A DNA stretch of 25,892 nt, from positions 1 through 25,892 of IMG/VR virus record IMGVR_UViG_3300006736_000081; one strand, written 5' to 3'. Shown here in pieces: positions 5,509 to 22,304 of this stretch (its first letter is position 1; each line of letters begins with the position of its first letter). A program made the translations under genes and the position numbers. Under the pieces are notes generated by a model that saw only the letters and a list, made by a program, of their open reading frames with translations, searched no databases and had not been told where the DNA came from. The stretch comes from a virus.

Positions 5509-7458
5509 ATGGTTACGGACACTCTTCATGCCGAAGCGATTACTTCGCCGCTCAATAATACGGAAGCGGTTGAGCGTATTGCAGATTCCTCGATGCCTAG
5601 CCTGGAGATGACCCAGGACCAGAAGGACCGTTGCCCTTTCTTTAAGTATGTGCCGAGAGACCTGGAAGGGAACCTGAAATATAGGCGGCATATGCTGCGA
5701 GATGCGGCGAGTAACCCCGAAGTACAAGCGCAGATCTGGACCGCATGTAGTCGAGATCTGCTTTTTTATGTCAATACCTTCCTCTACCTGTTTGAGCCGC
5801 GCGATGCCCTGGAAATCCCCTTCCTGACCTACGGATTCCAGGATGCGACGCTGATGAGCCTTGCCGATGCGATAGGTAATAGTGATATCGTGATCGAGAA
5901 GAGTCGGGATATGGGCGCGTCCTGGATGTGTGTGACAGTGATGGAGTGGTTATGGCATTTTCATGGGCGGCAGACTTTCCTGCTTCTGAGCCGCAAAGAG
6001 GATCTGGTCGATAAGACCGGCGACCCCAAGTCTCTATTCTGGAAACTGGACTTCCTACATAAATACCAGCCTGCATGGTTGCTTCCGACCGACTGTACAC
6101 GGATGAACATGCACAAAGAGAATATGGATACTGGTGCGTCCATCGATGGTGAGAGTACGAACAAGTTTGCGGGTGTTGCCGACCGGCGACGGGCGGTGAT
6201 GCTCGACGAGTTTAGCAAGATGGACAACCAGGAAGTTATCTTTCGGGGTCTGCGTGATGTGAGTCGGACCCGTATATTCAACTTCACCCCGCAAGGATCT
6301 GCCAATCAAGCCGCTAAGGTAGCGCGGGATTCCCGATTCAAGACCATTACCCTGCATTGGAGTTACCACCCTGAGAAAGCCAGGGGGCTGTATTACGTGC
6401 ATGAGGGTGGACGAATCGAGATTATCGACCATGCCTACTGGACGGCAGAGCGCAAGCGGGACTATCAGTTCCGACAGCAGCGACCCAATAACCCGCGATT
6501 CTTCTATAGATCCCCCTGGTACGACGAGCAGTGCGATAGAGCGGCACATCCGATGGAAATAGCCCAGGAGTTGGATATTGATTACCTGGGTTCAGCCTAT
6601 CAATTCTTTGACCAGGAAGTGTTGGGGCGAATCGAGCGCGAGGATATCCGACCACCCTACGCGATTGGTGAACTGGACTTTGACCGGGAATCGCTGGAAC
6701 CGATGGGCTTTGACCTGAAACCGGGCGGGTGCCTCAAGCTATGGGTGAACCTTGCCAGTGATGGGCGACCCCCCAAGGATCGCCGGTACGTGATCGGTGC
6801 CGATATCTCGATGGGGACCGGGGCATCCAATTCAGCTATCTCGATCATGGACCGCAAGACCCGCGAGAAGGTGGCAGAGTATATCACACCTGATATGGAA
6901 CCAGGGGAGTTTGGACGGTTGGCGGTTGCCCTGGCTAAGTGGTTCGCCGGTAATGATCCGGCTGAATCAGCATTTATGATCTGGGAATCCAACGGTCCTG
7001 GCAGGCTGTTTGAGAAGGCTGTATTGGGCAGCCATTTCGGGAATTATTACTTTCGAGACCAGAACGACCAGGACATTACCCGCAAGAAGAGTAGAAAACC
7101 GGGATGGTGGAAATCAGCGGAGACCGGGATTAAAGCCCTGGGTGATCTGCGGCGGGGGATGAAGGATAGAACCGTAGTCATACGCTCCATCCAGACCATC
7201 GATGAAGCGAGACAGTATATCTTTAATACCGATCAATCCGTCACCCACTCCAACGAGAAACAGAACGAAGACCCTTCAGGAGCGAGAGCGAATCATGGAG
7301 ACCTGATTATTGCCGATGCCCTGGCATTTATGGGGTTGTCGGAAGTGAGCAATAAGAAAACAGCAGCACCAGCCGCTAAGGTTGGGTCGTTTTTGTATCG
7401 GAGATTAAAGCATCGAGAGCAGCGGCAGACGAGCGAGAACAGGTGGTTGATGCCATGA
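5509..7458 (+). CDS. terL: Terminase large subunit
   Basis: A 649-residue packaging motor that uses ATP to translocate DNA into the prohead and cuts it with a C-terminal nuclease. The ATPase shows an atypical Walker A, SRDMGASW (132-139), common in phage terminases, and a Walker B AVMLDEF with D233 and E234. FNFTPQGSANQ (258-267) fits the coupling motif region. The RNase H-like nuclease shows GADISMGTG with D432, IWESNG with E493 and HGDLIIADAL with D598/D603. Length is normal. Its stop overlaps the next start (ATGA, 7455-7458). The reading frame is intact. Confidence 0.95.
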   Translation: MVTDTLHAEAITSPLNNTEAVERIADSSMPSLEMTQDQKDRCPFFKYVPRDLEGNLKYRRHMLRDAASNPEVQAQIWTACSRDLLFYVNTFLYLFEPRDALEIPFLTYGFQDATLMSLADAIGNSDIVIEKSRDMGASWMCVTVMEWLWHFHGRQTFLLLSRKEDLVDKTGDPKSLFWKLDFLHKYQPAWLLPTDCTRMNMHKENMDTGASIDGESTNKFAGVADRRRAVMLDEFSKMDNQEVIFRGLRDVSRTRIFNFTPQGSANQAAKVARDSRFKTITLHWSYHPEKARGLYYVHEGGRIEIIDHAYWTAERKRDYQFRQQRPNNPRFFYRSPWYDEQCDRAAHPMEIAQELDIDYLGSAYQFFDQEVLGRIEREDIRPPYAIGELDFDRESLEPMGFDLKPGGCLKLWVNLASDGRPPKDRRYVIGADISMGTGASNSAISIMDRKTREKVAEYITPDMEPGEFGRLAVALAKWFAGNDPAESAFMIWESNGPGRLFEKAVLGSHFGNYYFRDQNDQDITRKKSRKPGWWKSAETGIKALGDLRRGMKDRTVVIRSIQTIDEARQYIFNTDQSVTHSNEKQNEDPSGARANHGDLIIADALAFMGLSEVSNKKTAAPAAKVGSFLYRRLKHREQRQTSENRWLMP

Positions 7459-8351
7459 TCCTGGTGTTTATAGCATTGATGCTGGTGGTATTGATTGTAT
7501 GCAATGTTGTCCCATGTCACTATCAATTACCTACTTGCGACTCTGATGATGACATAGATGAAATAGAAATCTTCCCCGCAGCAGTGGAAATCGAAGAAGA
7601 AGAGGAGGTTGAAAACGTGGCAGCAGCACAAGGAACCGGCATAACAATTACGGCAGCAATGGCTGTTAAGAAGGGGTTCAAACAACAAGCGGATCTACAG
7701 GATTCACAGCGGGAAATCGCCATGACCGGGGATCGGCATGTCAACACCAGCCTGACCCTATCAGCGCGGGATACCCTGGTCCTGATGGATTACGGGCAGA
7801 TGGTTCGCCCTGGATATCTCTACTTCCGATGCCCTGAGAGTGATGATGAGTCATTTATCGATGTATTGCGCGGCAGTACGGATGCGGCGGCAATGTTGAC
7901 CGGCGAAATAACATCGATGACTTCCGAAAGTCTTGAGGTCTTGTGTATCAAGGTTGCTCATGGTCTGACGACCGGCGATACGATCACCATCATCGATGTT
8001 GATTCTACCCTGAATAATCAGGTTGCCGGGGAGTGGACTATAACCGTTCAGGATGCTAACTCATTCACCCTGGATGGGAGTGTTACAACTGCATCAGAGA
8101 ATGATGGAAGCGTTACCGGATCTATCGGTGATCCCATTACCACAAATACCGCTATCGATACCGATGATCTACCTTATTTCTGGTTGACCAATGATGTGAT
8201 CGCACGCGCCAAGGGTGGCACCGACCGCGAGTTTAGTCTGGTACGCCTGGGACCGGGAATGACCAGTGTGGCAGGGGCGCGGGACCGTTTACTACGTTTC
8301 AAGGCATCAAAAGACAATATCGAGGTGGAATACCTACTCAGTGAGGATTAA
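7455..8351 (+). CDS. Decoration-like virion protein with membrane N-terminus and FCCH-like insert
   Basis: A 298-residue protein starting at the ATGA overlap with terminase. Residues 1-20 are a hydrophobic segment (MILVFIALMLVVLIVCNVV) and 28-54 a very acidic linker. The rest begins AAAQGTGITITAAMA. Residues 95-150 (TLSARDTLVLMDYGQMVRPG) and 238-298 (ending VEYLLSED) resemble the two parts of the beta-rich protein encoded at 8357. Between them, about 150-225, lies an FCCH-like beta domain (HGLTTGDTITIIDVD, WTITVQDANSFTLDGSV). An in-frame GTG at 7617 (codon 55) with AGAGGAGG upstream may be the main start of a 244-residue virion form. It is probably a head decoration or accessory protein. The membrane segment is odd for that role and may be a separate product or a chance extension. 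Confidence 0.68.
   Translation: MILVFIALMLVVLIVCNVVPCHYQLPTCDSDDDIDEIEIFPAAVEIEEEEEVENVAAAQGTGITITAAMAVKKGFKQQADLQDSQREIAMTGDRHVNTSLTLSARDTLVLMDYGQMVRPGYLYFRCPESDDESFIDVLRGSTDAAAMLTGEITSMTSESLEVLCIKVAHGLTTGDTITIIDVDSTLNNQVAGEWTITVQDANSFTLDGSVTTASENDGSVTGSIGDPITTNTAIDTDDLPYFWLTNDVIARAKGGTDREFSLVRLGPGMTSVAGARDRLLRFKASKDNIEVEYLLSED
7601..7619 (+). promoter_or_regulatory. Internal ribosome binding site and GTG start
   Basis: AGAGGAGG (7601-7608) is followed after eight bases by GTG 7617-7619, in frame with the gene at 7455. It is among the strongest Shine-Dalgarno matches in the window and could give a 244-residue product lacking the membrane segment. Glu codons (GAA/GAG) also create such purine runs, so coincidence is possible. 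Confidence 0.5.
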
Positions 8352-8356
8352 GGGTT

Positions 8357-8728
8357 ATGGCAGATCTTACAGCAACAGTGACATTGGTGAGCGCGAAGTC
8401 TCCCAATACGTCACTCACCTATACCGGGGTAGCCGACGAAATATCGTGCAGTGCCACCGGGCGATTGATTGGCACTCAAACCATCGGCACATCGGAAGAG
8501 GCATTGGACTTAGGACAAGTGGGTAGTGCGACCCTAGGTCTATGCCTGATTGTCAATACCGACTCAACCAACTTCGTCGAGATGCGCCAAGGGACCGGCA
8601 CCACCAACTTGATGAAGTGGAAAGCAGGAGAGGCGTTTCTATTTAGATTCTCCCTGGACACCACTGCACCATTTATGATCGCAGACAGCGGCAGTGTGGT
8701 GATCGAGATCTGGTTACACGACGACTAG
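8357..8728 (+). CDS. Small beta-rich virion protein (decoration-like)
   Basis: A 123-residue protein starting at ATG 8357, five bases after the previous stop. It is rich in Thr, Ser and Gly with alternating beta-like strands. The end (WKAGEAFLFRF, TTAPFMIADSGSVVIEIWLH) matches a pattern I know from small phage virion proteins whose C-termini read like APY-AD-VEYLLIED. It appears homologous to the flanking parts of the protein at 7455: ATGRLIGTQTI pairs with MTGDRHVNTSL, and ALDLGQV with VLMDYGQM. The two are probably tandem paralogues, here without the inserted domain. Predicted role is capsid surface or neck protein; moderate confidence. Confidence 0.65.
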   Translation: MADLTATVTLVSAKSPNTSLTYTGVADEISCSATGRLIGTQTIGTSEEALDLGQVGSATLGLCLIVNTDSTNFVEMRQGTGTTNLMKWKAGEAFLFRFSLDTTAPFMIADSGSVVIEIWLHDD

Positions 8729-8735
8729 GAACATC

Positions 8736-10565
8736 ATGCAGGATTGGCAAAAAGAAACCATCATAGCGCACTCGACGCTGACGGCATTGCTGGATTCGGT
8801 GAATAACAGCCGCTATCGGATGCAACCCTTCCGCGAAAAACAGCGGGAACTGGTGCGCCAATTTGTGGGATATAACTATTCCTATGACGGTGCCTACGCG
8901 CCGGTGCCGGTCAATCTGATAGAGACAGCCAGTGTCGTCTATATGCAAAACCTGTTCTCACAGATGCCGCAAGCTACTGTTTCATCCCCCTATGACAAAT
9001 TCTATGAAGATGCCAGGGATATCGAGACAGACCTGAATGACCATATAGAAAACCTGGACCTGGACCTGCCCATCGGGAAAGCGGTACTCAATAGCCTGTT
9101 TTCCCTGGGGGTGGTCAAGGTGGGCGAGCAGTTGACCGGCGATATCGAAGTGGATGAAGTGATGATACCGATGGGTGATCCGTATGCCCTGCCCGTCCAT
9201 ATCGATGATTTTGTTATGGATATGGAAGCGCGGGACATGCACGAGCTACGCTTTATCGGTAATCGATATCGCATGGACTTTGAATTAGCCGTAACTACCT
9301 TTGGGTACAATCAAGCCGCCCAGGATCAACTACAACCCACATCCACCCCGACCCGATATAACGAGTTTGGCGACGAACGCACCGAAACCATGAGTATGGG
9401 ACAATCAGTGCGGGACCGATCAGAGTTTAAGCCGCATGTGGAACTATGGGATCTGTACCTGCCGCGCGAAGGATTGTTGATTACCGTACCGGCTGAATCG
9501 GCGGGGCTACAGACAGCACTCCCAACGGTCCTGAAAGCGCGAATCTGGAAAGGTCCACCCCGTAAAGCCAACAGCATGAATTGCGGACCCTTCCATCTAC
9601 TCTGGCATAACGACGTTCCTGGGAACTTCTTCCCGTTATCCCCGATGTCGGTTCTTAATGATCTGCATGACCTAGCGAACACACTCTTCCGAAAAATTGC
9701 GCGCCAGGCTTTGCGACAGAAAACGAACCTTCTGGTACAGGACTACGCTATCTCCGATGGTGAACGAATCATCAACGCCGATGATGGTGTGGCGATTACC
9801 ACCAACAACGCAGACGGGGTGCGGGAGGTTTCCTGGGGTGGTCCCGATCAAGCAGGTATGGCCGCTTTCATTATGGCGAAGGATGAGTTTGATATCCGCG
9901 CCGGAAATTTATCGGTGATGGGCGGGACCGCGCCCGGTTCAGATACGGTCGGCCAAGATCAGATGATGCAATCCGCAAGCAGCAAACGCCTACAGCGGTA
10001 TCAGCAGCGGATTCATCGATTTACCAGGGGGATTATCCACGATATTGCATGGTATCGGTGGCACGATCCGTTCGTACAAAATGCCCTGACCAAGAAGTAC
10101 GAAGGCACCAATATCGAGATCCCGATTGTATTCACCCCCCAGGACCGGCAGGGCGTATGGGAAGACTATCGGTTCGATATCGTGCCGTACTCTATGGTTG
10201 AGCGCACCCCCCAGGAACAACTACAGGTACTCAATTCGATCCTGATGAACCATGTCTATCCAAACCTGGAAATGATGATGTCCCAGGGAATCACCGTGGA
10301 TCTGACCGCATTTGTGGAAGAGGTTGCCCGACTGACCAACTACAACCATTTGCCACGTATACTCAAGACAGGACAGGGAACCTGGGAGCCGCCACCACAG
10401 AGAGAGGGGAACAATAACAAACCAGCCAATACATCCAGGACATATACCAGGGTGAATCGGCCAGGAGCGAACGTACAAGGAAAGAATCAGGCGATGATTT
10501 CCTCATTGATGGGTGCAAACCAACAGCCTGCGGAGCAAGCGCAGATTGCGAGGCAAGCAGGATGA
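8736..10565 (+). CDS. Portal protein
   Basis: A 609-residue protein between terminase and scaffold/capsid, the usual place for the dodecameric portal through which DNA enters and leaves the head. The N-terminal region (KQRELVRQFVG, PVPVNLIETASVVYMQNL) and the central block FPLSPMSVLNDLHDLANTLF followed by RKIARQALRQKTNLLV match the portal type I associate with environmental podovirus-like phages. DSVGQDQM-like sequence (DTVGQDQMMQSASSKRL) corresponds to the stem region. Residues from about 560 are Gln/Asn/Pro-rich and probably disordered. Ribosome binding signal upstream is weak (AGGAAC). The stop overlaps the next gene (ATGA). Confidence 0.85.
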   Translation: MQDWQKETIIAHSTLTALLDSVNNSRYRMQPFREKQRELVRQFVGYNYSYDGAYAPVPVNLIETASVVYMQNLFSQMPQATVSSPYDKFYEDARDIETDLNDHIENLDLDLPIGKAVLNSLFSLGVVKVGEQLTGDIEVDEVMIPMGDPYALPVHIDDFVMDMEARDMHELRFIGNRYRMDFELAVTTFGYNQAAQDQLQPTSTPTRYNEFGDERTETMSMGQSVRDRSEFKPHVELWDLYLPREGLLITVPAESAGLQTALPTVLKARIWKGPPRKANSMNCGPFHLLWHNDVPGNFFPLSPMSVLNDLHDLANTLFRKIARQALRQKTNLLVQDYAISDGERIINADDGVAITTNNADGVREVSWGGPDQAGMAAFIMAKDEFDIRAGNLSVMGGTAPGSDTVGQDQMMQSASSKRLQRYQQRIHRFTRGIIHDIAWYRWHDPFVQNALTKKYEGTNIEIPIVFTPQDRQGVWEDYRFDIVPYSMVERTPQEQLQVLNSILMNHVYPNLEMMMSQGITVDLTAFVEEVARLTNYNHLPRILKTGQGTWEPPPQREGNNNKPANTSRTYTRVNRPGANVQGKNQAMISSLMGANQQPAEQAQIARQAG

Positions 10566-12635: not shown

Positions 12636-13664
12636 ATGGCATTAACCGACGATAAAATACCAGATCTAATTAACGGTACGCTCAAGGAATTGGGCCGACT
12701 CCGTTTCAATCAGGTTGCGCAAGCCCGAACCCGTTATGAAGTTTTTGGCCGATTGATGAAACTCAATAAGGTTGAAATCCACGACGGCGAAGGCATCCAG
12801 CGCAACTTAATGATGCGTCATTCAGGAGCGGCACAACGCGCCGGGATGAACAGCGTCGATAACGTGTCGATTGGCGATGTGTCCGCACAGATGTCAATTG
12901 AATGGAAACACGTTTTTTCGTACTACGCCTACGAGCGGCGTGAATTGCTGATGAACCGGGGCGCGTCCAGGGTCTTCGATGTGATGAAGATGCGGCGCAC
13001 GGACGGCATGTTGTCCCTGGTCGAGTTGATGGAGCAGGACTTTTTCAGCAAGCCTGCCGATTCATCCGATGAACTGACCCCCAACGGGTTGGACTATTGG
13101 GTGGTCAGCAACGCGACGACCGGCTTCAACGGTGGTAATCCTTCCGGCTTCTCTGATTGCGGGGGCATTGACTCCGACACTGAGGCAAACTGGAAGAACT
13201 TCACCGGCACCTATGCCGCTTTCTCTAAAGCGGATCTGATTAAGTTGATGCGCCAAGCCCACCGACGCACCGACTTTGTATCCCCCCTGGACATTCCCGA
13301 CTACCGGGAAGGCGCAGGTCAGGAATACCGGATCTATCTCAATCGCACATCGATTGAGAATTTGGAGGATCTAGGCGAGGCGCAAAACGAGAACTTGGGC
13401 CGAGATTTGGCTCCGATGGATGGCGCGATGGCGTTCAAACGCAATCCGATCATCTATGTGCCGCAGTTGGATGACTCAACCAGCAACCCCATTTACATGC
13501 TGAACTTCAACTACCTGCACATGGCTTGCTTGAAGGGCGACTACCTGCGCGAGTCCAACCCTGAGAAGGCACCGTTCCAACACAACAGTTGGTGTGTATT
13601 CATCGACTTGACGTACAACTACTTCTGCACTGACCGGCGACGGCAGGCAGTTTTGACCCAGTAA
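12636..13664 (+). CDS. Major capsid protein
   Basis: A 342-residue protein after portal and scaffold. The opening ALTDDKIPDLINGTLKELGR and the C-terminal block (YLRESNPEKAPFQHN followed by VFIDLTYNYFCTDRRR) match a major capsid protein type I know from environmental tailed phages. By that family it should adopt the HK97 fold and form the icosahedral shell. No N-terminal protease or delta domain is evident, in keeping with a separate scaffold. The start at 12636 has only a distant AAGGA. Base composition is slightly more GC-rich than flanking late genes, and a hairpin follows the stop. Confidence 0.85.
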   Translation: MALTDDKIPDLINGTLKELGRLRFNQVAQARTRYEVFGRLMKLNKVEIHDGEGIQRNLMMRHSGAAQRAGMNSVDNVSIGDVSAQMSIEWKHVFSYYAYERRELLMNRGASRVFDVMKMRRTDGMLSLVELMEQDFFSKPADSSDELTPNGLDYWVVSNATTGFNGGNPSGFSDCGGIDSDTEANWKNFTGTYAAFSKADLIKLMRQAHRRTDFVSPLDIPDYREGAGQEYRIYLNRTSIENLEDLGEAQNENLGRDLAPMDGAMAFKRNPIIYVPQLDDSTSNPIYMLNFNYLHMACLKGDYLRESNPEKAPFQHNSWCVFIDLTYNYFCTDRRRQAVLTQ

Positions 13665-15610: not shown

Positions 15611-16411
15611 ATGCCGGGATCGCCGTTAGCCGTAGATTATCCATCGATTGCCAAGGAAGTCTCATGGGAAATGGGTTACGGGCGTGATATATCCATACTC
15701 AATGCGACCCGTTTAGACCTATTGGCGTATGTGATCGCCAAGGGGATGCGGCAAGTCTATTGGCCCCCGCCCACCGAGGTTCGTCCAGGTGGAGTGTCCA
15801 GGTCATACCGATGGCGATTCATGCAGCAGGACACCGCTATCGATACGGTTATCGGGCAGGGTGACTATCAAATGCCGGAAGACTTCGGGGGGGTGGTGGA
15901 TGTCATCACCTTCCAGACGACCACCCTTAGAGATCCAATCGAGATTACCGGCGAACAGGAAATCAGACGACGACGGCAGAACCGCACCTATAATGCCCGA
16001 CCATTCCTGGCCGCGCAGATGCCGCGCCCCTCAACCGGCGCACTGGCACAACAGTTTGATATGCAGTTATACCCAACCCCTGATGCCGTCTATACCCTGG
16101 AATACACCTACCATGTCGTACCCTGGACCCTGGATGCGGATCACCCCTATCCATTGGGTGGGGATATGTTGGGTCAATTGTTTATGGAATCATGCCTAGG
16201 TGCCGTCGAGCAGCATATCAAGAAAGCCCCAGGGATTCACACACAGTTATTCGGGGATATGTTACGCGCGGCAATCGTGACCGACCGCACTACATCGGTC
16301 CCTCATACCTTGGGATATAACGCCGACCGTAGCGATTCAGCGCAAACCAATCGTTTTAACCGTAATACCAGGGGCGACGACGGATACTACGTCACCTTCG
16401 CAGGAGAATAG
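15611..16411 (+). CDS. Putative head-tail adaptor / connector
   Basis: A 266-residue protein with GAGGA 9-10 bases before ATG 15611. It lies between the head operon and the large tail protein. The segment MQLYPTPDAVYTLEYTYHVV followed by PWTLDADHPYPLGGDMLGQL matches a recurrent pattern in podovirus connector proteins of the T7 gp11 / P22 gp4-like class, which form a ring under the portal. The N-terminal helices (LAVDYPSIAKEVSWEMGYGR) and the WRFMQQ turn agree. The call combines motif recognition and gene order; it is not certain which subclass. Confidence 0.68.
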   Translation: MPGSPLAVDYPSIAKEVSWEMGYGRDISILNATRLDLLAYVIAKGMRQVYWPPPTEVRPGGVSRSYRWRFMQQDTAIDTVIGQGDYQMPEDFGGVVDVITFQTTTLRDPIEITGEQEIRRRRQNRTYNARPFLAAQMPRPSTGALAQQFDMQLYPTPDAVYTLEYTYHVVPWTLDADHPYPLGGDMLGQLFMESCLGAVEQHIKKAPGIHTQLFGDMLRAAIVTDRTTSVPHTLGYNADRSDSAQTNRFNRNTRGDDGYYVTFAGE

Positions 16412-16413
16412 AG

Positions 16414-16755
16414 ATGCAGACGATTCCCGAAACCGGCGCAGTACCGACATTCAGTACAGCTACCGGCACCAATGCGGCAGCAGTGATTACCTTAGCGGCA
16501 GATGACGAAGAGGTGCATGTGATCGATTGGATTCATTACAGCTTCGATCAGGTGCCAGCGGCGGCACTCACCCTGACAGTCGCCATCGGTGGTGTCACCA
16601 AATTCACCCGACAGATAGCGGCGGGTCTGGTGCAATCGAGAGACAATATCCCCTTTGAGGGTGGTCTCTATGGCGAAAAAGGTGATGCGGTTGTCATTAC
16701 ACTTGGGGCAGGTGGTGCGACAGTGGTAGGCACTGTGAATGCGAGGTCAAGATGA
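16414..16755 (+). CDS. Tandem paralogue A, small beta-rich virion protein
   Basis: A 113-residue protein starting two bases after the connector stop. It shares with the next gene IPETGA-PTFST at the N-terminus, LAAD...HVIDW in the middle, PF-GG-YG-KGD and a C-terminal N-RSR, so the two are clear paralogues from a tandem duplication. Beta-rich, neutral and without Cys, it looks like a small virion accessory or decoration protein. No named family is recognised. The stop overlaps the next start (ATGA), so the pair is translationally coupled. Confidence 0.7.
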   Translation: MQTIPETGAVPTFSTATGTNAAAVITLAADDEEVHVIDWIHYSFDQVPAAALTLTVAIGGVTKFTRQIAAGLVQSRDNIPFEGGLYGEKGDAVVITLGAGGATVVGTVNARSR

Positions 16756-17090
16756 AGGCAATACCTGAAACTGGTGCAAAGCCTACATTCAGCACTGAAT
16801 CCGGCGTATCAAATCTGACTGTCTCTTTAGCGGCAGATGCCGAGCATACCCATGTGATCGATTGGGTAGATTTCAGTTACGAGGATGCGACCAATGCGGC
16901 ACCAACTGAAATATCGATCATTGATGATTTTGATACAGTGCTATGGCGATGGCAGATATTGGATAACCTTGTTGGGTTGGCGAGGTTCATACCGTTCCCT
17001 GGTGGAATCTACGGCACCAAGGGCAAACGCCTGCGGGTGACGCTATCCAATACGGGACCGACTGCCTCTCTGAACGTCAGAAGCAGATAA
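16752..17090 (+). CDS. Tandem paralogue B, small beta-rich virion protein
   Basis: A 112-residue protein beginning at an ATGA overlap with its paralogue. The N-terminus KAIPETGAKPTFST, HVIDWVDFSY, FIPFPGGIYGTKGK and NVRSR align with paralogue A, while the segment between (ISIIDDFDTVLWRWQILDNL) has diverged. Keeping both copies with different surfaces would suit heteromeric assembly or a change of ligand. Probably a virion surface protein; function unknown. Confidence 0.7.
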   Translation: MKAIPETGAKPTFSTESGVSNLTVSLAADAEHTHVIDWVDFSYEDATNAAPTEISIIDDFDTVLWRWQILDNLVGLARFIPFPGGIYGTKGKRLRVTLSNTGPTASLNVRSR

Positions 17091-18031: not shown

Positions 18032-21000
18032 ATGGCACAGCAAGCACCAATGGAATTGCAGTGGCCGTTGGGTGGGATCTCTAAGAAGGTCCAGGTCCAG
18101 AGTCAACCCCCCTATACCACCCCTGACGCTCAGAATGTACGTCATACCGACGTAATTGAAGGGCGCACCAGGGGTGGGTCTAGGGCTGGTCTGGGTAAGA
18201 TGTGGGAGGAAAGCGCGGGAACAAAGGTTATTGATGATGTAACAAAAGTGGTGGTTGAAGTTGACGCACAAGGTAGTAGTGCAATCGAGAAGATACAAAT
18301 CAATGTGGATAAACATCATTTTTCAGGTGGAGAGGTAATTGAAATACGAGGACAAACCATTGTTACACCACAGGGAGATCCGTCGCCACTGAATGGGGAG
18401 TGGACCGTTGAGTTTGTGGATGCCGATAATTTTCTATTAGCAGAATCAACAGATAAAGCACTTCCAAATATATTAGTTAATGGGTTGATAACAACCAGGG
18501 TTAATCTACTGGCACAGGTGGACTTTGTTACTAATAAAAGAGTTGAGGAACGCACCAAGAAGATTATCACTGATAAATTCCAAGCAGATGATTTAGGGGA
18601 TAATTGGAAAACAGTGAGTAAAGGGGGATCGATTGATTTTTCTTTTCCAACTGTTTTACGAGGAATGGCAGCAGCAGAATATGATGATGAGGTAGCTTGT
18701 GCCTATAAAGAGGTGGATCACGATAATCAGTTTGATTTCGAGACCGAAGGTAAACATGAAATAGGGATACATATTATTCCTTATCGTGGCTCACATCGGG
18801 GGACATACAAGCTGTATATATGTATGGAGGATGGTGATCCATCGGCAAGCGCGGCAGATGGAGTTACTGTTACATTAACATTGGGTGTGACAGCGGGTTC
18901 GTTCAGTGGGACAGTCAATGTTCCTAGTTCACTATCTATATCCAGTGTCTCTATACCGGCAGTAAACTTTCAAACAGTCAGCGGTACGATATTAAACGAG
19001 GCAGGCAATGGAGTTGATAAGGCGGGATGGTTTCGCCTGATATTGAAAAGAGGGTTTTTCGGGTTTGACCAATTATCAGGATGGTGGCAAGGGACGAAAC
19101 TTTTTCAAATTTTCGCGCAAAACGGATTTGGAAATCCAGACATTACCTTACCAGCCGATGGTAATGAGTTGATTGTTGTTCCTTTATTGCCGGGAGGTGC
19201 GGAAAACTCCGAGTTTCCAGAGGATCGGGTGGGGTTTGGAATGGTGCCGAGAGCGGAGAACGACATCACCCTGGTCGATACATGGCAGTATATCTATGAA
19301 AAAGGGGTGATCCCTACAAGACGTTCCCTGGTTGTAGCATCAGCATGTGGAAAAATGTCTTTCAATAAGGATTTATGGAAACTGGAAGATTTACAGAATC
19401 TTGATGGTACTAAATCTAAAACAGGGTTAGCAGCGGATCGCAATATACAGAGCGTTCAATATGAGCAAGATTTATTGATAGCGGATTTTTCTGAGGCTAG
19501 AGCAGCAGGAAAAGGGCAGAACAGGGTTGATGGAATAGATGAGCCTGGGCATATAGAAACTGTAAAGTTAGTCAGTAATACACTGTTAAAGGATATAAAT
19601 GTAAAGTTTGAAGAATTGGGGATAGTCAGTACGGATGATCTGGTGTATGTCAGACGAGAACTTTACGCCAGCATTACATCCGTTGATGCAGGGGGTGGGG
19701 AGATAGTTGGTGAACCGGCAGGTTTTCCGTTACAGGTTTTTGAGGCAGTTTATATCCCTGGCTCACAAAGCGGGGCTACTCTGGGTTTAACATGGTTTGG
19801 GGGTTCCAAGCCTGACCACATGGATGGTACAAGTGGGAATAGCGCGTTAGCCAAATGGGAAGTTGTGACATATGAGGTGCATCGATGCCCGAAAATATAT
19901 CAACCAACACACCCTGTTAATCCATTAAATCATTTTGTTAGATGGGAAGCAAGAAAAAGAGGGGGGCAAGATCAAGGGACGTTTGGTTTTCCTCCCCTGG
20001 GTTGTCCAATCATTTGTAAATGGTCAAACAGAATTTGCATGGCCGGAAATCCTTCGTTCCAATGGTTCATGTCCAGACAGGGTGACCCCACAGATTGGGA
20101 TTATGGCGCGGCATTACAAGGGGATAGTGCGGCGGCAACCTACGGGGATAACGCCGATGCCGGTACATTGGGTGAAGAGATCCGCGCATTGGTCCCATTT
20201 GGCGATGACCACCTGATATTCGGATTGAAAACTGAGACCTGGGTAATGCGGGGTGATCCAGGGTTTGGGGGGCGATTACTCAATATATCCAGGAGCGTCG
20301 GTTTTCTTGATCGGGATGCCTATTGTCATGGTCCCAACGGTGAACTGGTATTCATGTCATTAAACGGTTTGTATGGGATGTCAGGGCAGGGCAGTTTACC
20401 AGAACCGATATCTTTGGGGACACTACCAGAGGATCTGTTAAACATAGAACGGTCCAACTATCAAGTGACGATGGAGTATTCTGTAAAAGAGCGAGGGATT
20501 CACATCTTCCTGACCCCTCGTGTACGCAATATCCGCAGACATTTCTATTTCGATTGGGATACCAAGACCTTCCTTCCAGATAAGTATCGATTGGATCAAG
20601 AAGCAACAGCGATATTTAGATATAACTCACAACTCGATGACGCAGAATATGTGTTAATAGGTGGTCGTGATGGATATATCCGTAGGTACGACGAGCGTTT
20701 TGAGTTGGATGACGGGGAAGAAATTGACAATTACATCATCATTGGACCATTGGCAGTGGGGGGCGATCACTTCACAGAAGGGTTTGTGCATGAGATAGAG
20801 GGGGTTCTGGCTCAACATAGCGGACCTTTATCCTACAACATTCTATCCGGCGCGACTGCGGAAGAAGCGGTAAAGAGTACCACCAGGGAAGCGGCGGGGC
20901 ATTGGTTCGCAGGTGATAACCCTATCGATTATCCCAGGACAGCGGGACGCTATATCTGTATCAAGATTGGTAATCATAGTGTGGGCAGGGCATGGGCGTT

Positions 21001-21052
21001 AGAGGCTATACGGACGGTTATGGAGCGTGGGGCGCGGTTCAGGAGAGACTAA
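18032..21052 (+). CDS. Large tail hub / nozzle protein with inserted domains
   Basis: A 1006-residue protein. The N-terminus (MELQWPLGGISKKVQVQSQP) and C-terminal half (ICKWSNRICMAGNPSFQWFM, WVMRGDPGFGGRLLNISRSV, ELVFMSLNGLYGMSGQ) resemble the beta-propeller tail nozzle proteins of podoviruses (T7 gp12 / P22 gp10-like), expected to bind under the connector and close the tail. Residues 70-160 look like an FCCH-like beta domain (GEWTVEFVDADNFLLAEST), similar to that in the protein at 7455. Residues 180-340 resemble a lectin-like jelly roll (DKFQADDLGDNWKTV onward). DNA over roughly 18230-19980 is visibly more AT-rich than the gene's ends, suggesting an acquired insert. The frame is intact. Confidence 0.66.
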   Translation: MAQQAPMELQWPLGGISKKVQVQSQPPYTTPDAQNVRHTDVIEGRTRGGSRAGLGKMWEESAGTKVIDDVTKVVVEVDAQGSSAIEKIQINVDKHHFSGGEVIEIRGQTIVTPQGDPSPLNGEWTVEFVDADNFLLAESTDKALPNILVNGLITTRVNLLAQVDFVTNKRVEERTKKIITDKFQADDLGDNWKTVSKGGSIDFSFPTVLRGMAAAEYDDEVACAYKEVDHDNQFDFETEGKHEIGIHIIPYRGSHRGTYKLYICMEDGDPSASAADGVTVTLTLGVTAGSFSGTVNVPSSLSISSVSIPAVNFQTVSGTILNEAGNGVDKAGWFRLILKRGFFGFDQLSGWWQGTKLFQIFAQNGFGNPDITLPADGNELIVVPLLPGGAENSEFPEDRVGFGMVPRAENDITLVDTWQYIYEKGVIPTRRSLVVASACGKMSFNKDLWKLEDLQNLDGTKSKTGLAADRNIQSVQYEQDLLIADFSEARAAGKGQNRVDGIDEPGHIETVKLVSNTLLKDINVKFEELGIVSTDDLVYVRRELYASITSVDAGGGEIVGEPAGFPLQVFEAVYIPGSQSGATLGLTWFGGSKPDHMDGTSGNSALAKWEVVTYEVHRCPKIYQPTHPVNPLNHFVRWEARKRGGQDQGTFGFPPLGCPIICKWSNRICMAGNPSFQWFMSRQGDPTDWDYGAALQGDSAAATYGDNADAGTLGEEIRALVPFGDDHLIFGLKTETWVMRGDPGFGGRLLNISRSVGFLDRDAYCHGPNGELVFMSLNGLYGMSGQGSLPEPISLGTLPEDLLNIERSNYQVTMEYSVKERGIHIFLTPRVRNIRRHFYFDWDTKTFLPDKYRLDQEATAIFRYNSQLDDAEYVLIGGRDGYIRRYDERFELDDGEEIDNYIIIGPLAVGGDHFTEGFVHEIEGVLAQHSGPLSYNILSGATAEEAVKSTTREAAGHWFAGDNPIDYPRTAGRYICIKIGNHSVGRAWALEAIRTVMERGARFRRD

Positions 21053-21454
21053 GTGCCGACAGTATCTAACAGCATACGAACCGCTGTAAACACGATGGAT
21101 GATGTGCGCCGCGCCTTGATGAAGATCCTACAGGATATGGGGATCATTAAGCGGAATACTGTCACCGTGGATGCCGCCTACTCTATTACCCGATTCGATT
21201 CAATAATATATGTGGATGCAGAAGACGCATTACCAGCAGTAGGTATCAATATAACGCTTCCTCCGACCGGCAACCTGAGCCGGGGGTTCCAGGTGGATGT
21301 CAAGAAGATTGATATCAGTACCAATAAAGTGACCATTAAAGTCGATAATGAAGATACTGAAACGATAGATCTGGCGACTGACCTGGAGATAAGCACACCC
21401 CAGGCGAGTCGTACCCTATCGTGCAATGGGGGGGCTCTTTGGCATGTCCTATGA
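21053..21454 (+). CDS. Tail fibre protein, N-terminal/adaptor type
   Basis: A 133-residue protein that starts at GTG 21053, directly after the previous stop. Residues 15-30 form a helix (DDVRRALMKILQDMGII). From about 40 the sequence (VDAAYSITRFDSIIYVDAED, VDVKKIDISTNKVTIKVDNE, SRTLSCNGGALWHVL) is a motif widespread in phage fibres and spikes, a beta module of the form Y-V-D-A..T-L-P..V-K-K..V-T-I..W-x-V. It may link the long fibre to the tail. The stop overlaps the next gene by eleven bases. Confidence 0.78.
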   Translation: MPTVSNSIRTAVNTMDDVRRALMKILQDMGIIKRNTVTVDAAYSITRFDSIIYVDAEDALPAVGINITLPPTGNLSRGFQVDVKKIDISTNKVTIKVDNEDTETIDLATDLEISTPQASRTLSCNGGALWHVL

Positions 21455-22304
21455 TCCGATACTAGGTATCGCCAATATAGTCGAGGACACAACCCCCCAA
21501 TTAGGGGGCAATCTGGATACCCAGACATTCACCGTTGACGGGCGTGATGTCGGCACCGATGGCACCAAGTTGGACAGTGTTGAATCGGGGGCAGATGTCA
21601 CCGATGCGACAAACGTGGATGCCGCCGGTGCCACAATGAACGCTGATACCGACGTATCCAGCAATAGTTATGTTGTGGATGAAGATGATATGTCGTCTGA
21701 TTCGGCCACCAAATTAGCAACACAACAAAGTATTAAGGCATATGTAGATGCAGGAGATGCCGCCCCCGCCACACGACCATACTTAGTTACAAATTATTAC
21801 ACTAGAAATGGGTCAATAACCATAACACCATTTATTACAAACAGTGATACGACTGCACAAATGTATGGATTACGAGTCGTATATAACGCCGGTGCATCGG
21901 TTGTTATTGTTAAATTTTATCAAAACCAGCTACCTGAATGGGTCGATGTTTCCGAAGATATAACCGTATATCTTCCCGTTCAACTAATCAATGCTACTCC
22001 GACATCGGGTGAAGGTTGCTACCATCAAGTTTTTGTAGATTATTTCGACCCTGCTGGAGTGGCAGGAGTTATCTCAGAATATACAGCAACGGCTAAATTT
22101 AATGATCTAAATGCGATGGGTTGGACACACACACATACTGATATGCTTAATATTGGGACGATTGCGGGTGGAACTTTACCGAGTGAAGCAGTGTTTGGGA
22201 TAGCATGGACAGCACCAATTAACGATAACAGTAAATGGACAATGAGTAATACTAAATATCTCAATCAAGCAAACATGCTTCAATTAGAGTGTGTGCCACT
22301 ATAA
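21444..22304 (+). CDS. Tail fibre, probable receptor-binding protein
   Basis: A 286-residue protein starting at ATG 21444 with a GGGGGG run upstream; an ATG at 21426 is less likely. The N-terminal half holds classic phage fibre motifs: NIVEDTTPQLGGNLDTQTFT, VDGRDVGTDGTKLDSVESGA and DMSSDSATKLATQQSIKAYV. Residues 110-286 (RPYLVTNYYTRNGSITITPF onward) differ in composition: the DNA from about 21775 is AT-rich, and the sequence is beta-rich with many Thr, Asn and Tyr. The C-terminal part is probably the exchangeable receptor-binding tip. Host receptor unknown. Confidence 0.8.
   Translation: MSYDPILGIANIVEDTTPQLGGNLDTQTFTVDGRDVGTDGTKLDSVESGADVTDATNVDAAGATMNADTDVSSNSYVVDEDDMSSDSATKLATQQSIKAYVDAGDAAPATRPYLVTNYYTRNGSITITPFITNSDTTAQMYGLRVVYNAGASVVIVKFYQNQLPEWVDVSEDITVYLPVQLINATPTSGEGCYHQVFVDYFDPAGVAGVISEYTATAKFNDLNAMGWTHTHTDMLNIGTIAGGTLPSEAVFGIAWTAPINDNSKWTMSNTKYLNQANMLQLECVPL

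Follow-up and report, generated by a model that had tools for sequence, protein, structure and literature searches.

A probable FCCH-like module inserted in the predicted tail nozzle protein of a podophage and its distant relative in a second gene of the same virus record

The window analysed here is an entire IMG/VR virus record of 25,892 bases, and the features discussed below are collected in Table 1. The integrase appears to be of the tyrosine type and, given its presence, the phage may be temperate. The portal-like protein is named from its position and length. The head-tail adaptor gene precedes the gene of P0001 in the structural block, with three open reading frames (ORFs) between them; two ORFs between adaptor and nozzle, 16414-16755 and 16752-17090, are tandem paralogues (43% identity, 115 columns). 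Two further genes, those of P0001 and P0002, carry the modules studied here, referred to as A and B.

Table 1 Features of the window, with positions numbered from its first base
Feature	Positions	Strand	Remarks
Integrase	1346-2455		phrog_1, E=5e-40
Terminase	5509-7458		phrog_2, 1.3e-13
P0002, 302-residue ORF carrying module B	7443..8351	+	ATG at 7455; alternative GTG at 7617
Module B, FCCH-like, P0002 residues 156-228	7908..8126	+	
123-residue protein	8357-8728		Between P0002 and the portal-like gene
Portal-like protein	8736-10565		Without PHROG or significant Pfam match
Major head protein	12636-13664		phrog_9953, 3e-12
Head-tail adaptor	15611-16411	+	Pfam SU10_adaptor PF24175, E=3.9e-10, over cut-off; upstream of the nozzle gene
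P0001, 1006 residues, predicted tail nozzle protein	18032..21052	+	T7 gp12 / P22 gp10 / SU10 gp17 type
N-terminal nozzle arm, P0001 residues 1-56, QPPYTTPDAQNVR...RGGSRAG	18032..18199	+	Conserved in homologues
Module A, probably FCCH-like insertion, P0001 residues ~64-157	18221..18502	+	Bounds from homologues
Motif NGEWTVEFVDADNFLLAEST of the preliminary description, P0001 residues 121-140	18392..18451	+	
Second accessory beta domain, P0001 residues ~170-405	18539..19246	+	Alignment of 12 homologues
Native nozzle segment, P0001 residues 495-625	19514..19906	+	FCCH-like over 76-96 residues in most homologues, suggestive only
Conserved nozzle core, P0001 residues 655-1006	19994..21049	+	30-40% identity in homologues
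Tail-fibre-like protein	21426-22304		phrog_892, 5.5e-9; further genes follow

A preliminary description of the window had proposed that one module occurs in two otherwise unrelated virion genes and had suggested aligning the two copies. When the full proteins were compared by BLASTP, P0001 residues 76-146 aligned with P0002 residues 155-220 with 21/71 identities (30%, 27.7 bits, E=0.001). In an all-against-all comparison of 30 window proteins, P0001 and P0002 were the top pair (E=0.024) after the tandem paralogues starting at 16414 and 16752. Shuffled sequences were rarely as good: the Smith-Waterman score of module A against module B was matched by 1 of 5000 shuffles, and that of full P0001 against P0002 by 3 of 1000. 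Chance does not explain this resemblance, which is strong in the case of B and moderate in that of A. The motif quoted in the preliminary description does lie within module A, but the two ranges given there disagree, as bases 18240-18460 encode residues 70-144 and residues 70-160 are encoded by 18239-18511. The partner gene that it placed at 7455 was found as the P0002 ORF with its ATG at that position.

Both modules were compared with the Pfam family E1_FCCH (PF16190), which has a curated cut-off of 29.5 bits. Module B was matched at 14.5 bits (E=0.039), under the cut-off, and at 17.2 bits in a six-frame search; module A gave no match at E<=1 among the proteins or at E<=10 in the six-frame search. 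With its score under the cut-off, module B is classed here as FCCH-like and not as a member of PF16190. Profiles were also made from modules outside the window. The seed profile comprised five modules, namely four Pfam-accepted nozzle stretches and a second stretch of P0006 (a Manatee Spring phage protein described below) picked by eye, and profiles s1 and s2 were iterated with outside modules only, window sequences being left out. Among 45 proteins, the seed profile matched P0002 at E=5.4e-9 and P0001 at E=0.004, and with the iterated profiles the E values were 1e-7 to 2e-9 for B and 0.005-0.014 for A. Over the 165 stop-to-stop frames of the window, P0002 ranked first and P0001 second with each of the three profiles (P0002, 2.3e-8 with the seed profile and 1.2e-7 with s1; P0001, 0.015, 0.052 and 0.13 with seed, s1 and s2), the s1 and s2 values for P0001 falling short of the usual significance limit. 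Shuffled P0001 sequences scored as high in 0/1000 cases with s1 and 1/1000 with s2. Alignment to the outside FCCH profile by hhalign was in register for both modules (B, E=4e-7, probability 93; A, E=3e-4, probability 40).

When 12 phage modules, with A and B among them, were combined in one profile, it matched the FCCH domain of UBA1 in the PDB (E=9.6e-7, 78 positions) and, more weakly, the phage tail proteins 10lj (8e-4) and 9l0f (0.04); only one H and one G are invariant among the 12. Strands were predicted at residues 72-79, 103-106, 122-129 and 135-141 of module A, at low pLDDT (about 40-64) in the AF2 model of P0001, and at residues 151-158, 180-187, 193-204 and 207-213 of P0002, all at low pLDDT (about 40-60 over the module region) in a model whose overall value is 41. 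By sequence, module B can safely be called FCCH-like and module A is probably FCCH-like, which would give module A a small beta-barrel fold.

The identity of P0001 came mostly from profile and structure comparison. No Pfam or PHROG family names it, PF25675 (Phage_nozzle) was not matched at E<=0.1 by any of 48 family members including P0001 itself, and a P0001-family profile searched by sequence against solved structures gave three matches, the best at E=0.57 and none a phage protein. A profile of 13 known phage nozzles matched P0001 residues 661-742 (3.9e-4, hmmsearch), and P0001 with 47 homologues aligned to the nozzle profile by hhalign at E=1.1e-5 over residues 660-899 (223 columns), compared with 0.21 or worse for all 11 controls (the reversed and ten column-shuffled alignments). 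The AF2 model made from the 48-sequence alignment had a pLDDT of 73.6 and a pTM of 0.75, and its top Foldseek matches in the PDB were phage nozzles (SU10 6.6e-14, Pa223 4e-13, P22 1e-10). By VIA-align the Pa223 nozzle scored highest, with a Z of 27.3 over 462 residues; SU10 gave 24.7-25.6, P22 23-24, Carin1 22.2 and T7 19, with the VP1 nozzle within 22-26; unrelated propellers reached Z 19-20, level with the T7 nozzle. A list of BFVD models contained, at rank 42, a "Ubiquitin-activating enzyme E1, FCCH domain containing protein". The predicted structure and the profile matches identify P0001 as a podophage tail nozzle with a propeller and platform fold. The conserved core comprises later propeller blades and the C-terminal part of the platform, with the nozzle-family motif at 661-742, and by analogy with T7 gp12 the N-terminal arm may contribute platform strands. 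The second accessory domain may have a lectin- or concanavalin-like fold, and Foldseek matches to the whole P0001 model include calreticulin, beta-glucanase and the Emp47p CRD. This domain was present in 8/12 homologues and missing from four short ones (L113-L116).

We next consider where module A sits relative to other members of the nozzle family. P0001 and P0002 had no match in 50,697 phage records; no close relatives of P0001, its C-terminal part, P0002 or P0006 were found in viral contigs, nor of P0001 in genome contigs. Relatives were reached via the terminase and then via the nozzle alignment. At least 593 terminase-related stretches, out of 600 candidates, were confirmed in viral contigs, of which 80 were kept, and the 46 longer loci of 84 terminase-found loci served as related records. 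The contrast between at least 593 terminase relatives and no match of P0001 in the phage records may mean that the group is common in the environment and poorly covered by isolates. P0001 was matched at E<=0.01 in 13 of the 46 related records, 12 of them virus records, and in the alignment all 12 homologues lacked module A in the stretch between the RGGSRPG and VRML motifs. A second, nozzle-based scan took in 80 loci of 115 confirmed, some contigs being shared with the terminase set. The comparison drew on 83 nozzle ORFs, of which 57 were full-length and 52 of these distinct; fragments and ORFs lacking the N-terminal motif were dropped. None of these 52 homologues carried module A, and each had at most 16 residues where P0001 has 101.

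Module A is an insertion specific to this lineage, placed close to the first strand of the propeller. In the AF2 model, strands at residues 46-50 and 53-56 precede it and a strand at 157-166 follows it, and the propeller matches found by VIA-align begin at residue ~51. The most likely arrangement is therefore that blade 1 bears the module on its outer side. The preliminary description's view of the module as an added part agrees with its absence from all 52 nozzle homologues and with the lack of any P0002 homologue in the 46 related records. It had also proposed a search for further copies in related phages: Pfam E1_FCCH matched none of these 46 records at E<=0.01, and our own FCCH profile reached only E=0.011 as its best score in the 84 loci (7149 frames).

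The accessory gene that carries module B, located between those of terminase and portal, is less readily assigned to the virion. Read from the ATG at 7455, P0002 begins with a hydrophobic helix (pLDDT about 90), predicted to be a membrane helix, followed by an acidic linker. With no known relative and this helix at its N-terminus, P0002 leaves the earlier designation of "two virion genes" standing for P0001 as a nozzle and not for its partner. The alternative GTG start lies 8 bases after AGGAGG at 7603-7608; the GAA/GAG-rich codons of P0002 could mimic such a ribosome site. Among 79 relatives having both genes, the terminase-portal gap was 27 bases or less, or an overlap, in 62, 81-178 bases in 6, 304-760 in 8 and more than 3,500 in 3, so that P0002 occupies a site of gene gain in this lineage. 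In the PDB, P0002 matched a neck-whisker protein (9occ, E=0.034), but that alignment does not keep the register of the FCCH motif and was set aside. We also considered whether P0002 arose from the 8357-8728 protein by insertion of a module; this gained no support, as no homologue of the 8357-8728 protein was found.

FCCH modules also occur in the nozzles of other phages. A lax tblastn search with module B returned five records at E=2-5, four Manatee Spring phages and the Methanosarcina virus MetMV. The matched Manatee Spring phage gene is annotated "phage stabilization protein"; its product in the first of these phages (P0006) contains an E1_FCCH stretch over the Pfam cut-off (31.5 bits) and is a tail nozzle by its match to PDB 8ck1 (Carin1, E=1.2e-65). 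Among 11 named nozzles, Pfam E1_FCCH was over the cut-off in four (ctVRi840, HTVC010P, Vibrio phage 1.021.A and ctRVW222), under it in Mel-JY33 (13.6 bits) and absent from six, one of which, ctCJ8213, held three likely modules by our own profile. The nozzle of ctRVW222 (1883-5317) has about five modules, with 4 Pfam stretches totalling 97.9 bits; the number per nozzle in some other phages ranges from one to about five. In a four-nozzle alignment the modules were clean insertions at two places, present/absent pairs aligning around them: the earlier place in HTVC010P, the later in Vibrio phage 1.021.A and both in ctVRi840. A full-length profile comparison paired P0001 residues 92-136 with ctVRi840 nozzle residues 119-157, inside the latter's Pfam FCCH stretch (114-173), but only as the second-best, weak alignment (E=0.089). 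In a module-based viral scan, with 80 stretches kept of at least 540 confirmed among 600, every match kept was closely related to the nozzle module of the Pelagibacter phage (2 non-redundant out of 81). Public annotation already shows that podophage nozzles can contain FCCH modules; nozzle genes of Vibrio, Nostoc and Microcystis phages have been deposited as "FCCH domain ubiquitin-activating enzyme E1". We found no study of FCCH in phage tails in the literature covered, which excludes most subscription journals.

How modules A and B relate to each other can be judged from these comparisons. Module A might be some other small beta domain whose likeness to FCCH reflects convergence of strand-rich sequence. 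Patterns of the WT-I/V...F-L kind are frequent in beta proteins, module A scores weakly without B as a bridge (E 0.004-0.05), has no Pfam match and is modelled at low confidence, and the strand-rich protein at 21426-22304 is likewise faintly matched (E 0.02-0.2). We nevertheless regard convergence as unlikely, as A matches B directly in the right register (E=0.001) and the FCCH profile by hhalign (3e-4), ranks second of 165 frames with three profiles, is equalled by none of 1000 shuffles with an outside-only profile and lies, like the FCCH modules of other nozzles, in the N-terminal part of the protein. One module might also have been copied recently from the other within this phage, given that they share a genome and that searches of the related records recovered neither of them. 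Such an event is highly unlikely: module B is closer to the modules of MetMV (43%, E=1e-7) and ctVRi840 (36%) than to A (26-30%), which argues against recent gene-to-gene copying. The two modules were probably acquired separately, and their likeness would be that of a widespread family and not of a recent copy. The "same module" of the preliminary description thus holds at the level of the family and no closer, A and B being 30% identical in the BLASTP alignment as against 43% for B and MetMV.

A broader, very unlikely reading treats the FCCH barrel as a mobile component that moves among phage tails, taken up independently by the two genes here, possibly present as a native tip segment at P0001 residues 495-625, and the source of the FCCH half-domain of eukaryotic E1 enzymes. 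The homologues' segment opposite P0001 495-625 matched the FCCH profile at E=0.0019 by hhalign, compared with 0.16-0.78 when seven further segments of these homologues were tried, while P0001's own, longer copy alone gave E=0.38. This native, possibly FCCH-like segment (residues ~355-400 in L137 and L140, for example) is perhaps where other nozzles carry tip domains.

For the role of module A, we think it rather likely that P0001 is a hexameric nozzle in which residues ~64-157 form an inserted FCCH-like barrel serving as an interchangeable outer part for docking or spacing. By analogy with known nozzles, the P0001 hexamer would close the DNA channel of a short-tailed phage. The alignment places the module directly after the first predicted propeller strand, so that six copies per tail could jut from the propeller rim, where each may act as a spacer and as a surface on which a tail fibre or an adjacent subunit docks, and would not be catalytic. 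Its position recalls the SU10 nozzle, in which blade 1 is extended by a loop to which the short tail fibre docks, while Ig-like nozzle domains interrupt the propeller between blades 2 and 3 (PMC9509320). Other nozzles are described as having a fibre dock and a beta-barrel tip in T7 (PMC6702177) and, in the crAss001 muzzle, two immunoglobulin-like domains below the propeller together with a large further domain (PMC10172136). Against docking, other nozzles manage without module A, and FCCH modules do not sit at one fixed site from nozzle to nozzle, so a single common docking role is not required.

Alternatively, as the preliminary description had suggested, the module could be a host-surface or glycan-binding domain, six putative copies of which would add weak contacts to the envelope. 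Module A is accessory and lineage-specific, as expected of adhesion parts, and a second, possibly lectin-like domain follows it in P0001. The 12-module profile also gave a weak match (E=0.065) to the phage endosialidase 4hiz, at residues 194-256, and in the K1F endosialidase a beta-barrel, which may correspond to the matched stretch, is one of three sites that bind polysialic acid (PMC12632334). The 4hiz match is not significant, no binding residue is known or conserved past the barrel pattern (one H and one G being invariant in the 12 modules), and the best solved matches are E1 enzymes (UBA1, 9.6e-7). The FCCH domain of E1 enzymes is not known as a lectin. Glycan or host-surface binding is therefore possible but doubtful, and docking to fibres or neighbouring subunits appears somewhat likelier.

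One nozzle with the module set against 52 distinct homologues without it makes a clean with/without case, suited to asking what a tail protein that gates DNA gains or loses from an extra domain on its surface. The comparison also accounts for nozzle genes labelled as ubiquitin-activating enzymes, since the name comes from the inserted FCCH module and not from an enzyme. Beyond these two points the finding is an ordinary one.

By predicted structure, P0001 shares the propeller and platform with the nozzles T7 gp12, P22 gp10, SU10 gp17, Pa223 and Carin1; it differs from these in being larger than most and in carrying two accessory domains, of which the first is the probably FCCH-like module. The extra FCCH or FCCH-like domain in the N-terminal third of the nozzle is probably a feature shared with Vibrio phage 1.021.A (NVP1021A_14), Microcystis phage Mel-JY33 and Pelagibacter phage HTVC010P (its tail protein), although the modules of HTVC010P (46.9 bits) and Vibrio phage 1.021.A (42.3) pass the Pfam cut-off and module A does not. 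The position differs as well, the modules of HTVC010P and Vibrio phage 1.021.A lying at least 50 residues past the RPG motif and that of P0001 starting ~11 residues past RGGSRAG. Given the lack of a BLAST match to phage records, P0001 belongs to a nozzle family other than theirs. The MetMV protein AZF89914.1 resembles P0002 in its FCCH-like module (residues 32-90; 43% identical to B over 63 columns, E=1e-7), but there the module occupies the N-terminal end of a protein that matches beta-helices and is not a nozzle. Finally, the phage modules resemble the E1_FCCH domain of ubiquitin-activating enzymes (PF16190; UBA1 2lzj, 4p22) by the profile match at 9.6e-7 but, unlike in those enzymes, A and B occur without the accompanying enzyme domains.
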